Shown one piece after another: positions 38,847-62,224 of a DNA stretch of 64,000 nt. Source of the stretch: Phycisphaerae bacterium (lineage in GTDB: Bacteria > Planctomycetota > Phycisphaerae > Phycisphaerales > Phycisphaeraceae). Position 1 is the first letter of the stretch, and every line of letters begins with the position of its first letter. The stretch is from positions 124,001 through 188,000 of the forward strand of contig JAUIGU010000003.1 in the NCBI GenBank assembly GCA_030432595.1, read 5' to 3'. The position numbers were made by a program, and so were the translations under genes. The notes below the pieces were generated by a model that was given only the letters and a program-made list of their open reading frames with translations, had not been told where the DNA came from and ran no database searches.

Positions 38847-40394
38847 TCACGCCGAACGACGACGCGCCACGAGCCCGACGGCCACGACCCACACCAGCGC
38901 CGCCGGCTCGGGCACGAGCTTGATCGGCGTGCCGCCCGGGTTGGGTGAAAGCGTTGAGCCCCAACCCAGCAGCACCTTGTCGAGCTCAGCCTGATCGACG
39001 ATCCCGTTGGGCAGGTCGTTGATCCACCCCAACGGGACGCCGGACTGCCCCCAGTTCCGCAGGACCAGGTCCAGGTCGCCCTGCTCGACCTGGCCACTGC
39101 CGTCGTAGTCGCCGGGCAATAGCAGCCGCTCGAAGATGTCCAGGGCATTGATCGAGCCGCTGACCAGTTGCAATTCGATCAGTTCCAGCGGCGGGATACC
39201 GGTGGGCGGCACGCGTTCGTCGGGCAGGATCTGCAGCAGCATCTCGCCCGGCCGCAGGAGGTCCCACGGCAACGGCAGGAACGCCGGGTGGTTCGGGTCG
39301 ATCAGGATGTCCGCCGGGATCAACTCCCCGTTGAGGAACACGTCAAAAAAGTCGTCGAGGATGAATGGCTCGATCGGCAACTGCGGCGGCAGCAGCACCA
39401 GGCCCGGGTCCACGGTGTCGCCCTGCAACACGTTGCCCTCGAGGCCCTGATTCCACCCGGGGTGCAGCCCCGGCTGCTCGCCCAGCGGCCCCCGCGAGTC
39501 CCAACCGGTGAACGGGTCGACAACGATGGACGACTGGCCGGTGAAGTGGTTCCACCACTCGCCCAGGTCGAAGTCGGTGTCGCCGTGGTCATCGACGTAG
39601 ATCACGAGCTCTTCGCCGTCGCCGACGTCGCGGGCCGCGGCGTTGAGCATGCCTTGCAGCGCGCTTTGCGTGTTGCCGTTTGACGAGGACGAGTACACGC
39701 CCTCGTCGTTGAGTATGCCGAGCGTTTCTTCCATGTTCGAGACGTTGTTGTCGTGACGCTGGCGGTTGTTGTTGCCGCTGAAGACCACGACCTCGGCCGG
39801 TCCCAGCGTGACGGCGCTGCCGCCGTTGGCACTGACCACTTGCGGGGTCTCGGGCTCGTCGAGGTTGAGGTTGCCGCCGGCGGCCGCGCGGTCGTTCGCC
39901 GCCGCGTCGTCCAGGATGTCCTGGACCGTGTCCCCGTCCTCAGCGCCGTTGATGGCGCCGTTGAGCGCGTCGGTCCAGTAGCTTCCGCGGCTGGACGTGC
40001 CCACCGACGAATTGCTCGGGCCCCACGCGACCTCATCCGCTGCCGACGCCGACCCGCCCACAAACGGGATGTCGAAACAGTCCACGATCGTTTTCGACAG
40101 GTCGTCAAGCATGCCGCCGCCGTAGCAACTGTTGAAGAACACCTTCACGCTGGTGGGCAGCTGGCCACCGCCGTCGAGCGCCGCCTGGATCGCGTTCTTG
40201 ACCATCTCGGCGAACGTGTCGTCGCGGATGCTGGTCGTGCCGCCGTCGCCGTCCCCGACCGTGATGGACGAGTGCTCACCCGGCCCCTGCGCCGTGGGCG
40301 GCCGATCGCCCGCCAGATTCCCCGCGGCGACGCCCAACGACCAGACCACCGCCAACAGGCACGCCAAACCACGCGCTATACGCTGCCAAGCCAT
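38847..40394 (-). CDS. Secreted caspase-like (apparently circularly permuted) protein with dockerin-like repeats and PEP-CTERM tail
   Basis: A 515-residue exported protein with a signal peptide (about 1-27). The first half contains VKVFFNSCYGGGMLDDL with C90 and VGGSASAADEVAWG. The second half contains AEVVVFSGNNNRQRHDNN, a helix, and ELVIYVDDHGDTDFDLGEWW with H270. In caspase- and legumain-type peptidases the strand with His-Gly comes before the strand with the catalytic Cys; here the order is reversed, as in a circular permutation. A Pro/Leu-rich region, two EF-hand-like units (GQVEQGDLDLVLRNWG, GIVDQAELDKVLLGWG) and the tail LVPEPAALVWVVAVGLVARRRSA follow. Protease activity is not proven. 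Confidence 0.75.
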   Translation of the reverse strand: MAWQRIARGLACLLAVVWSLGVAAGNLAGDRPPTAQGPGEHSSITVGDGDGGTTSIRDDTFAEMVKNAIQAALDGGGQLPTSVKVFFNSCYGGGMLDDLSKTIVDCFDIPFVGGSASAADEVAWGPSNSSVGTSSRGSYWTDALNGAINGAEDGDTVQDILDDAAANDRAAAGGNLNLDEPETPQVVSANGGSAVTLGPAEVVVFSGNNNRQRHDNNVSNMEETLGILNDEGVYSSSSNGNTQSALQGMLNAAARDVGDGEELVIYVDDHGDTDFDLGEWWNHFTGQSSIVVDPFTGWDSRGPLGEQPGLHPGWNQGLEGNVLQGDTVDPGLVLLPPQLPIEPFILDDFFDVFLNGELIPADILIDPNHPAFLPLPWDLLRPGEMLLQILPDERVPPTGIPPLELIELQLVSGSINALDIFERLLLPGDYDGSGQVEQGDLDLVLRNWGQSGVPLGWINDLPNGIVDQAELDKVLLGWGSTLSPNPGGTPIKLVPEPAALVWVVAVGLVARRRSA

Positions 40395-41567: not shown

Positions 41568-42371
41568 TCACGGCCCGGCGGGATAGATGTTCCGCTTGAG
41601 GATGGTGCCGATCTTCTGGCTCGATCCGTGGCCGTCGGCCCAGGAAATATTCAGGCTGCTCTCGTTCTGGTGGCGGTACCGGATGTTTTTGGCGGCGGGG
41701 TCGGCACCGACGAAGAAGTCGCCGTTGCGGTCTTCGGAAATCAGCGCATCGGGATCGACGTTGGATTTACTGAGATAAGCGGTCCCGTCTTTCGGCGCGT
41801 TGCCGTCAAGCTTGTCCAGCCCCGCGTAGGTGTGGCCCTCGGTGATCAGTCCTTGGCCGAAGTCGTTGACGTCGCGGGCCGCCTGGCTTGAGTCCGCCAA
41901 AGACAACATCTCCGTCGGGTTCCGCAACGCGTCAACTTTCAACCACTTCAATCCGGTGGCGAAAGGCGTGCCGGCGTTGCTGACGGTCGGCATGACCATG
42001 ACGTTGCCGGCAAACGTCGCGTCGTTCGGGTCGGTCTGAATGAGCGCGTCCGGGCAACGCAGGACGTCGCTGAAGACCGCGTCCTGCGGCGTCACGTTGG
42101 CATAGTCCATATCGCCGCCCTCGATCTGTTCGGTGATCAGGCGGAACAGGTCGGTGCGTCCGGCGTAGAACGTCGGCATGTAGTGACCGTCGTAGTCGTT
42201 CGTGTAGGTGGCGATCGCGATGGCCATCTGCCGGGTGTTGGACAGGCAGGCCATGTTGCGGGCCGTCGCGCGGGCGGCGCCCAGGGCCGGCAGGAGGATG
42301 CCGATCAGCAGGGCGATGATCGAGATCACGACGAGCAGTTCGATGAGCGTAAAGGCGGGGCGGTGTTTCAT
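41568..42371 (-). CDS. Pseudopilin of the planctomycete type (paralogue A)
   Basis: A 267-residue protein starting [42 protein letters not shown], with a prepilin cleavage site before FTLIE and the pilin helix. The C-terminus carries [23 protein letters not shown], a His-to-DG spacing of 11 residues where the common motif has 9, and ends KRNIYPAGP. It shares both ends with the next gene upstream, so the two are tandem paralogues. The role of these proteins is unknown; type II secretion-like assembly is inferred. The GH16 gene follows downstream. Confidence 0.88.
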
Positions 42372-42449: not shown

Positions 42450-43289
42450 TTACGGGCCGGCGGGGTAGATGTTGCGCTTGAGCACGCTGCCGATCTGCTG
42501 GCTCGAGCCGTGGCCGTCGGCCCAGACGAAGTTGATGCCGGTGTCGTTCTGGTGCCGCCAGCGGAACTGCCGGGTCTCGGCGGCGAGGAACAGCCAGTCC
42601 TTGTTCGGTCCGGCGTCGATGACCTCGTCGGGGTCCACGGCCGTGGCGTTCTTGAGGTAGTCCGCCTCGCGCTTGACCCGGCCGTTGTCGATGAAGTCCA
42701 GGCCGGCGTAGGTGTGGCCGTAGGGGATCTCGCCGGCGTACGGGGCGGTGCCATCCCTGGCGTACTGGGTGGAGTCCGCCAGGACCATCATCTCGGTGAG
42801 GTTGTCGAGATTGTCGGCCCGGAGCCAACTGAGGTTGTTGATGAGCTTCCCGGTGGTCGCGCTGGGGTTGCCCAGCGCGAGGACCATCATGTTTGCCGCG
42901 TAGGTGACGTCCGACTCGTCCGTCGGGACCTGAGCGTCCGGGCAACGCAAGGCGCCGGAGAACCGCATGTCCACGTTGGCGATCTCGTTCTTGCCGTTGT
43001 TGGTGCCGGGGTAATACTCGATCGGCTTCCCTTCTATCAGGGAGCTGTAGAGCCGGAACCAGTCGAACCGGCTGTTCCAGATCTGCGGGTAGAACTGGTC
43101 GTAGTCGGTGGTGTAGACCGCGGTGGCCACGCCCATCTGTCGTATGTTGGAGAGGCAGGCCATGTTGCGTGCTGACGCCCGCGCGGCGCCCAGCGCCGGC
43201 AGGAGGATGCCGATCAGCAGCGCGATGATGGAGATCACGACCAGCAGTTCGATCAGCGTGAAGCCGGGTGGGGCGATGCGTCGGGGCAT
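42450..43289 (-). CDS. Pseudopilin of the planctomycete type (paralogue B)
   Basis: A 279-residue protein. ATG 43289 gives [27 protein letters not shown], a prepilin-type N-terminus; the frame is open to 43352. The C-terminus has [23 protein letters not shown] and ends [10 protein letters not shown], nearly the same as paralogue A 78 bp downstream. Between the conserved ends the two differ more, as expected for proteins exposed on the surface. A terminator-like hairpin at 43364-43391 separates it from the PEP-CTERM gene upstream, so it may have its own promoter in the short gap between. Confidence 0.88.
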
Positions 43290-43363
43290 GGTGTCGGGCC
43301 TCGGGAGGGGGGTGACATCCGGACGGCAACCCACGGACGGGACGCGAAGCACTTAGGGAAATA

Positions 43364-61264: not shown

Positions 61265-62224
61265 CTACGGCGCCGCCAGCGACGCCTGCGGCTGCATCAC
61301 CGGCACCTCGGCCCAGCGCAGCGTGCGGATGAACCCCATTAGCAGGAAGAACGCCAGCGCGAGCATCGCCCAGCCGGCGATGTTGTGGAACGTCTGCCCG
61401 ACCGCTTCGCTGAAGTGCCCCTTGACCATGATGGTCGGCACGACGCGGATGACGTTGCAGAGCACGGCGGCGAACGGAGACAACACAATCAACGCCACCC
61501 GCACCGACGGACGCAGCGGCGTGCCGAACGCGAACGCGTATGCCACGAGCATCAACGCGAACATCATGCGCATCCCGTTGCAGGCCTCGGCGACCATCAT
61601 CGGCTTGTTGTTGTAGTAGAACACGTTGCCCACGCGCTCGACGCGCATGCCCAACAGCTCGAAGAGGAACTGCGCGTACCGCGCGGTCTCGACCTGCAGG
61701 GGCAGCGACATCTGCTGGCGGATCGACCCGGGCACGGGCACCAGGAACGCGAAGACCAGCACGGCCGGCCAAAGCCGCCAGGTCAGGGACGGGCCGGCCA
61801 CCGTCACCATCGCTCCGACCAGCGCGAGCACCGCGCCGCCGTGCCACCCGATCTGCAGGTTGGTTCGGAACCCGAACTCGTGGATCGCCAACCCCAGCGC
61901 GACCAGGGCCGGGCCCAGGAACGTGTAGACCGGCCGTGTCCGACGAACTGCGGTCCACCGGCCCCAGACCAGCCACGCCGCGACCGGCAGCACCAGCCAG
62001 ACCTGGCTGGCTTCCTCATCGTTGTAGGCGATCCACAAGATGTCCGCCCACGCCCGGTAACACGCCACGAACGACAACGCGATCAGCGCGAGCGCGATGA
62101 AGATGCGCTGCGACGTCCACCCGCGGCGCATGCGCGGGCCCAGCCCCGAGCGGTCCTTGCGCGGAGTGTCAACGGTGCCGGTCGCCGCCGCGGGGCGGTC
62201 GAGTTGGGAAGCGGGCGCGGCCAT
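61265..62224 (-). CDS. Exosortase (PEP-CTERM sorting transpeptidase)
   Basis: A 319-residue polytopic membrane protein with about eight TM helices. The catalytic residues are C215 in VAEACNGMRMM, R260 in NVIRVVPTI and H280 in FHNIAGW, the conserved Cys/Arg/His of the exosortase family. Such enzymes are thought to cut PEP-CTERM proteins at the tail and attach them to an envelope partner. Eight proteins in this window end in a PEP-CTERM-type tail and are likely substrates. EpsI and the TPR protein follow on the same strand. The start ATG 62224 is the conserved one; the first ~35 residues are cytoplasmic. I cannot assign the exosortase subtype. Confidence 0.94.
   Translation of the reverse strand: MAAPASQLDRPAAATGTVDTPRKDRSGLGPRMRRGWTSQRIFIALALIALSFVACYRAWADILWIAYNDEEASQVWLVLPVAAWLVWGRWTAVRRTRPVYTFLGPALVALGLAIHEFGFRTNLQIGWHGGAVLALVGAMVTVAGPSLTWRLWPAVLVFAFLVPVPGSIRQQMSLPLQVETARYAQFLFELLGMRVERVGNVFYYNNKPMMVAEACNGMRMMFALMLVAYAFAFGTPLRPSVRVALIVLSPFAAVLCNVIRVVPTIMVKGHFSEAVGQTFHNIAGWAMLALAFFLLMGFIRTLRWAEVPVMQPQASLAAP

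Follow-up and report, generated by a model that had tools for sequence, protein, structure and literature searches.

The gene and the layout of its product

The window, by which we mean the whole 64,000-nucleotide stretch of DNA analysed here, comes from a Phycisphaerae genome of 4.39 Mb in 73 contigs. It contains an open reading frame on the minus strand at 38847..40394, with the ATG at 40394 and the stop codon at 38847-38849, whose translation is a putatively secreted protein of 515 residues (P0001). By eye, residues 1-25 (40320..40394, on the minus strand like all features of this gene) form an apparent signal peptide, suggesting that the protein is exported. Profile, half-swap and model comparisons delimit a catalytic domain of two parts. 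The first half, residues 37-197 (39804..40286), corresponds to the region of an ordinary clan CD domain from just past the catalytic His to the C-terminus; it contains the post-His segment 'S-I-x3-DG..I-R-DD', the Cys strand with the predicted nucleophile Cys90 (40125..40127), and a small-subunit-like part. The second half, residues 198-279 (39558..39803), corresponds to the beta1-alpha1-beta2-alpha2-beta3-His region of such domains and carries the predicted catalytic His270 (39585..39587) in a D-H-G motif. The translation confirmed the observation on which the original prediction was built, namely that Cys90 (KVFFNSCYGGGMLDDL) precedes His270 (LVIYVDDHGD). Directly past the His motif, the model and its structural matches place a beta-sandwich domain (residues ~272-415; 39150..39581).

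The C-terminal part had been predicted to comprise dockerin-like repeats and a PEP-CTERM tail, and this claim held only in a weaker form. A VPEP...RRRSA tail is visible in the sequence after a dockerin-like duplicated repeat (residues ~428-479; 38958..39113), and residues ~425-513 recur at many other places in the genome; however, the PEP-CTERM-like tail (residues 494-513; 38856..38915) scored 12.9 bits against a Pfam cut-off of 20.7, and no Pfam dockerin match was listed for the protein at E up to 1. PEP-CTERM proteins are characterised by a PEP motif, a transmembrane stretch and a basic end, in a genome with an exosortase, and type I dockerins by a duplicated Ca-binding repeat to which a cohesin binds. 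This sub-threshold PEP-CTERM match was all that Pfam gave for the window protein at E up to 1, and NCBIfam gave nothing at E up to 0.5. The dockerin-like and PEP-CTERM tail together (window 38850-39113) had 29 matches in the genome, this gene included, among 29 scored of 191 candidates. Since cohesin (PF00963) had no match in the genome, a cellulosome-type role is not supported. Two exosortase matches were detected in the genome, one of them in the window (PF09721 profile match, 61325..62089, minus strand; G000:C64:185325-186089), and the latter exosortase likely processes PEP-CTERM tails. Together with these matches, the PEP-CTERM-like tail suggests sorting to the surface, and the secretion and sorting signals fit a putative surface-attached protease. 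In other family members, introduced below, PEP-CTERM was above the NCBIfam cut-off in L048, IPTL-CTERM was below its cut-off in L044, and L043 and L052 carried a bacterial Ig domain and a PPC domain, respectively.

Open frames were listed up to two per side at eight loci, and six of these, from five loci, were scanned together with four genes of the window. The window neighbours were GH16, metallo-beta-lactamase fold, prepilin-type and LacI-type genes. Elsewhere, we found a class II tRNA synthetase (beside L043), a Mur ligase and an aminotransferase (L045), a radical SAM protein (L048), a phosphate transporter (L054) and one gene without a match (L044). No shared neighbour gene was seen in this small sample of ten genes from six places. 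Two adjoining prepilin-type genes of the window, at 41568-42371 (N_methyl, weak DUF1559) and 42450-43352, have nearly identical C-terminal tails (20 residues).

A scattered family with Cys before His

With the full-length protein as query, matches to the tail dominated, and the catalytic part was matched only by one further locus (L007, from the family-level search) and the gene itself among the matches listed. As the tail had swamped this query, later queries were made without the dockerin-like and PEP-CTERM tail. The tail-free query gave matches in 12 of 397 genomes of the class, nine of which were accepted, own genome included; L039, L041 and L042, which we take to be CotH-like, sulfatase-like and a repeat protein, respectively, were dropped by eye as unrelated. 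A contig scan with a ten-member alignment (A1) identified 12 loci, on records labelled Phycisphaerae (3), Bipolaricaulota (2), and Phycisphaeraceae, Phycisphaerales, Planctomycetota, Delta-, Beta- and Alphaproteobacteria and a Thermoplasmata archaeon (1 each). All 12 records are metagenome-assembled genomes (MAGs), so mis-binning is possible. The locus labelled Alphaproteobacteria (L053) lies on a contig of the same length as that of L038, a locus in a genome of the window's class, and the two sequences look identical by eye, which makes that label doubtful. On the contig labelled Thermoplasmata archaeon, a full-length member (L043), 41-42% identical over the catalytic part, adjoins the class II tRNA synthetase gene, and either transfer into archaea or mis-binning may account for it.

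Searches of wider taxa gave full or partial members in 7 of 100 genomes of Bipolaricaulota, the phylum of L052, including the genomes of L052 and L054 and one member masked in its His half (L088). The phylum of L044 gave matches in 9 of 235 genomes: a single genome carried two family members, and the remaining eight had proteins of ordinary order. In the window's phylum, 6 of 392 matched, namely the own genome and five with the His half only. Among 250 genomes of the order of L047, only its own gave a match. After removal of duplicates by contig and sequence we counted 21 members, keeping both of the near-identical L084 and L085, on records from Planctomycetota and Bipolaricaulota and on MAGs labelled Delta- and Betaproteobacteria and Thermoplasmata. 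The permuted family is rare yet scattered. PF00656 and PF01650 had no match in the window's own genome, the 12 member domains none in PADLOC at E <= 0.01, and the window domain none in the phage and plasmid collections.

A search for orthologues had been proposed with the original prediction, and the same Cys-then-His order was found in all 20 members with both halves readable. The Cys motif was kept in 21/21 members, with His-Gly C-terminal to it in 20/20; L088 was left out of the His count. In an alignment of 12 members (median pairwise identity 0.27), 11 of 193 gap-free columns were invariant, among them those of the Cys with its following GGG and of the His-Gly. The catalytic Cys column was conserved in 12/12 members, against 6 for the next-best Cys column, and the catalytic His column in 12/12, against 7 for the next-best His column. 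Judged from this alignment, the Cys90/His270 pattern is in excess of chance. As a possible catalytic His in place of His270, we weighed that of 'GEHS' but discarded it, since it is conserved in only 7/12. The six readable Bipolaricaulota members had lost the Asp of DHG and retained the Cys and His-Gly.

The residue two before the Cys was N, Q, T, S or A in all 21 members and never acidic, whereas it was acidic in 7 of 14 ordinary-order relatives, which would make a metacaspase-like preference for Arg or Lys unlikely in the permuted family. The same difference could be read as a sign that the protein has the permuted caspase fold but is a pseudoenzyme or a cell-surface binding module, and not, or not mainly, a protease. 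Protease activity is indeed only predicted, and the dockerin-like and PEP-CTERM tail recurs in the genome and is thus uninformative on protease function. However, a pseudoenzyme need not keep these two residues, which are the only Cys and His conserved throughout at a median identity of 0.27, and the six Bipolaricaulota members keep them, with the Gly, despite the loss of the Asp. We therefore consider a pseudoenzyme clearly unlikely. From conservation and fold we infer instead that Cys90 and His270 act in catalysis as a clan CD dyad.

The proteins matched by the His half only, in five genomes of the window's phylum and eight of the phylum of L044, were ordinary-order proteins, with His before Cys in 14/14 examined. 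One ordinary-order protein (L057) scored 30.2 bits with Pfam C13 (cut-off 22.8). One genome of the phylum (G534) had 15 C13-type matches (L062, L068-L081) in open frames of ~1,400-2,900 residues, which is unusually many legumain-like domains. In one Bipolaricaulota genome, a permuted member (L083) occurs together with an ordinary-order protein (L089; G788:C140:21150-21479), the latter reading 'VTNHGG...FEQCYSGG' inside a large open frame; L089 is a candidate close relative for tracing the permutation.

Half-swap comparisons and the predicted fold

The native-order family profile matched two ordinary-order proteins as two pieces in reversed order, at 157-259 then 15-116 in L089, and at 223-261 then 1-58 in L093. 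L093 reads ...SGHGG...DESMYVRDGHINDDELALWL...IIAMDACFSGG and the family N-terminus reads EHStI..sDG.iRDDeLA.wi...vki..nsCfGGG, from which the break can be located in the loop immediately past the catalytic His-Gly.

In a swap test, we used one pair of half-alignments, of 13 members, to build both the native and the swapped order. The best single-match scores summed over 14 ordinary-order proteins were 295.7 for the native and 390.3 for the swapped order; in the control, 200 column shuffles of the Cys half gave a mean sum of 306.4 and a maximum of 329.7. Four proteins exceeded all 200 shuffles upon swapping: L057 (34.9 to 50.2), L089 (30.8 to 51.6), L093 (18.6 to 48.7) and L098 (19.9 to 37.6). 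The other 10 of the 14 showed no significant gain, 6 to 190 of 200 shuffles scoring equally high, and most ordinary-order relatives matched the His half only. In an earlier run with five proteins and 150 shuffles, the gain was significant for L057 and not for the other four. In a rotation scan against five proteins, the sums stayed on a plateau when the cut was placed at columns 105-270 of 401 and were lower for the native order and later cuts. With hhalign, seven ordinary-order domains scored 99.4 over 89 columns in native and 155.7 over 181 columns in swapped order, in a single comparison each. As far as sequences go, these comparisons show that both halves are similar to ordinary-order relatives and collinear with them only once swapped. 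When 17 swapped members were placed in one tree with 14 ordinary-order domains, the permuted sequences made up one side of a branch with support 92/85, found in 92% of bootstrap trees and below the starred level, which is consistent with a single origin of the permuted family but does not prove it.

We also searched the PDB with profiles of 12 members in native and swapped order, without hand-picking chains. Metacaspase-4 (6w8s) was matched by the swapped profile in one stretch spanning His and Cys (profile 18-166; E 3e-7), and by the native profile as two ~10-bit pieces in reversed order (E 5.5e-4). Yca1 (4f6o) went from E 0.021 to 1.1e-6 upon swapping, and GSU0716 (3bij) was found with the swapped profile at E 1.8e-5. 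There was no gain for two legumain-type chains, 9va4 (E 0.033 native, 0.15 swapped) and 9vsx (E 0.0099 native, not among the swapped matches listed). Across 12 single members, the best E for Peptidase_C14 improved from 0.04 to 5.2e-5 upon swapping, and that for C13 hardly changed (0.0036 to 0.0029). At E <= 1, C13 was found in 2/12 and C14 in 1/12 native domains, compared with C13 in 3/12 and Peptidase_C14 in 2/12 swapped ones. The window protein matched neither Pfam C13 nor C14 in native order, and no Pfam family at all when swapped. Among five other members scanned whole, L047 alone gave C13, at 12.9 bits (cut-off 22.8), and in native order none of the members scanned was shown to exceed the cut-off of either Pfam family, C13 or C14. 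The profiles nevertheless bore out the original proposal that each half resembles its usual surroundings, as both halves resemble metacaspases and the ordinary-order relatives.

AlphaFold2 models were made of window residues 26-425 with 12 relatives (pLDDT 88.1, pTM 0.89) and of the Bipolaricaulota member L052, which is 30% identical to the window protein (pLDDT 88.2, pTM 0.89). Because the same 13 members make up both alignments, the models are only partly independent of each other. Both agree in strand order and motif positions, with the Cys behind one strand and the His behind a later one; in the window model, Cys65 is predicted to follow strand 58-63 and His245 strand 237-243 (Cys90 and His270 of the whole protein). 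The comparison with known structures was made with VIA-align, which works on the candidates supplied by Foldseek and aligns them anew. An engineered circularly permuted caspase-2 (cpCasp2) came first for both models (window, Z 11.6 over 161 residues at 2.7 A; L052, Z 12.6 over 172 residues at 3.0 A), and clan CD chains topped both lists. The next other entries were legumain-type, at Z 7.9 for the window model and 8.4 for L052; legumain and metacaspase-9 Z values are within VIA-align's common range, with the cpCasp2 rows above it. Legumain 7fqk (chain 150-288) matched the model from residue 15 on, and metacaspase-9 8a53 (chain 98-325) from residue 11 on. Taking the catalytic His to be His148 in 7fqk and His95 in 8a53, these model matches appear to begin just behind it, at the same break point as the sequences give. 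Based on the structural matches, Cys90 and His270 would have the geometry of a dyad. Model residues 247-390 resembled the beta-sandwiches of CBM35, the furin P-domain and BcsB, at Z values of about 6.3-7.1 that are in the common range and only suggestive of this identity.

Sequential Foldseek searches of the PDB gave nothing at E <= 0.001 for either model, which is as expected of a permutation but would equally be expected of a wrong model. These poor E-values could point to no permutation at all, the catalytic part being two unrelated half-domains or an unrelated Rossmann-like fold with coincidental motifs. This reading could also draw on the many relatives that match the His half only, and on the finding that none of the six members scanned whole has a Pfam or NCBIfam match at cut-off over its catalytic part. 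It does not explain, however, why the two halves have a metacaspase and ordinary-order proteins as common matches, in complementary order, why the swap fuses two matches into one collinear match, or why the two models agree, and we regard it as extremely improbable. The circularly permuted caspase/legumain fold of the original prediction is supported by the same-order homologues, the reversed two-piece matches to some relatives that merge upon swapping, the gain in PDB profile matches to metacaspases, though not to legumains, and both models.

Asparaginyl ligases and the catalytic subunit of GPI transamidase are examples within clan CD of peptide ligase or transpeptidase activity. Such an activity on other surface-sorted proteins, in place of hydrolysis, might be suspected here: the L052 model matched a legumain-type ligase (7f5p_A, Z 8.4) and a GPI transamidase subunit (8imx_K, Z 7.0), some members, including L048, L044 and the window protein, have sorting-type tails, and exosortase matches are present. 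Ligases and hydrolases are nevertheless not separable by fold similarity, and the ten neighbour genes scanned, from six places, had no common partner. We hold a ligase to be very unlikely.

A reversed order of the predicted catalytic residues, compared with known clan CD enzymes

In the known clan CD families the His precedes the Cys, the strands that carry the two residues are neighbours, the residues form a dyad, and the enzymes are endopeptidases with a defined P1 preference. The Cys comes first in all 20 members of the present family in which both halves are readable. Excerpts of PMC4357240 state that in clan CD two strands of the central sheet carry the catalytic His and Cys at their C-terminal ends, and that a Gly is next to the catalytic His in all families. 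The permuted family has HG in 20/20 readable members, and its models predict the same placement at strand ends. In C11, an excerpt of PMC12445089 gives the motif as His-Gly-Xn-Ala-Cys, with the His before the Cys. The C14 metacaspases and caspases and the C13 legumains have the His-Gly and Cys motifs and the fold predicted for the permuted family, whose halves are both similar in profile to metacaspases and to the ordinary-order relatives, and they differ from it in the order of the catalytic residues.

The large subunit of the engineered cpCasp2 is uncut and retains the His-before-Cys order. Its chain (PDB 8vp4, 9c2y) is likewise single, with a short linker joining the old termini, but it is man-made and its break lies between the large and the small subunit (excerpt of PMC7760212). 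In the permuted family, the chain is opened within the large-subunit-like part, at a point between His and Cys, and the catalytic order itself is thereby reversed, unlike in cpCasp2. The p20 of type III metacaspases is intact, with His before Cys within it, whereas here a p20 is cut between the His and Cys strands and no p10-like part precedes an intact one. According to excerpts of PMC5756287, which credits them to Choi and Berges 2013, type III metacaspases are a natural clan CD rearrangement in which a p10-like part precedes p20, and they are known from algae that arose by secondary endosymbiosis; the permuted family is prokaryotic. Circularly permuted NlpC/P60 enzymes (LRAT-like, YaeF/YiiX-like) are a natural permutation that also shifts a catalytic Cys, but they differ in having a papain-like fold and a Cys moved from near the N- to near the C-terminus (excerpts of PMC3142127). 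Among the matches listed from the open-licence PMC literature we found no natural caspase-fold permutation that separates His and Cys, which leaves its absence unproven.

Taken together, this is a real, scattered family with reversed catalytic order, and the window protein is very probably a secreted cysteine peptidase-like protein with a naturally circularly permuted caspase/legumain (clan CD) fold. The family's ancestry appears to lie in clan CD enzymes, whose mode of action its members probably share. In this scheme, the chain of an ordinary clan CD domain would have been opened in the loop just past the catalytic His-Gly and its old C-terminus joined to its old N-terminus through a short linker, so that the domain now starts with the Cys strand and the small-subunit-like part and closes with the segment that ends in the catalytic His. 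Once folded, the Cys strand (model 58-63) would lie beside the His strand (237-243) and form the usual Cys-His dyad, as in caspases, in which Cys90 would attack the peptide bond and His270 serve as base. The beta-sandwich would follow the His immediately, and the enzyme may be brought to the cell surface by a sorting tail on which exosortase acts.

A bolder proposal is that the permutation is not a neutral accident but made a secretion-activated enzyme, with a single origin and later spread into several bacterial phyla and perhaps archaea; we think this rather unlikely. If true, signal peptidase would free the new N-terminus right behind the catalytic His, that loop would also carry an accessory beta-sandwich or PPC domain, the active site would take shape through export and loss of the N-terminal segment, and no cleavage between large and small parts would be needed, as in engineered circularly permuted caspases.

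The natural permutation itself would matter in several ways. Caspase-fold enzymes are among the best-studied proteases, and their recognition relies on the His-then-Cys order. Reversed-order enzymes found in nature would demonstrate that the fold can accommodate an opening next to its active site and that standard family models overlook them. The family would offer protein engineers a natural template beside the designed circularly permuted caspases, and evolutionary biologists a rearrangement whose ordinary-order relatives are still extant, as with L083 and L089 in one genome.
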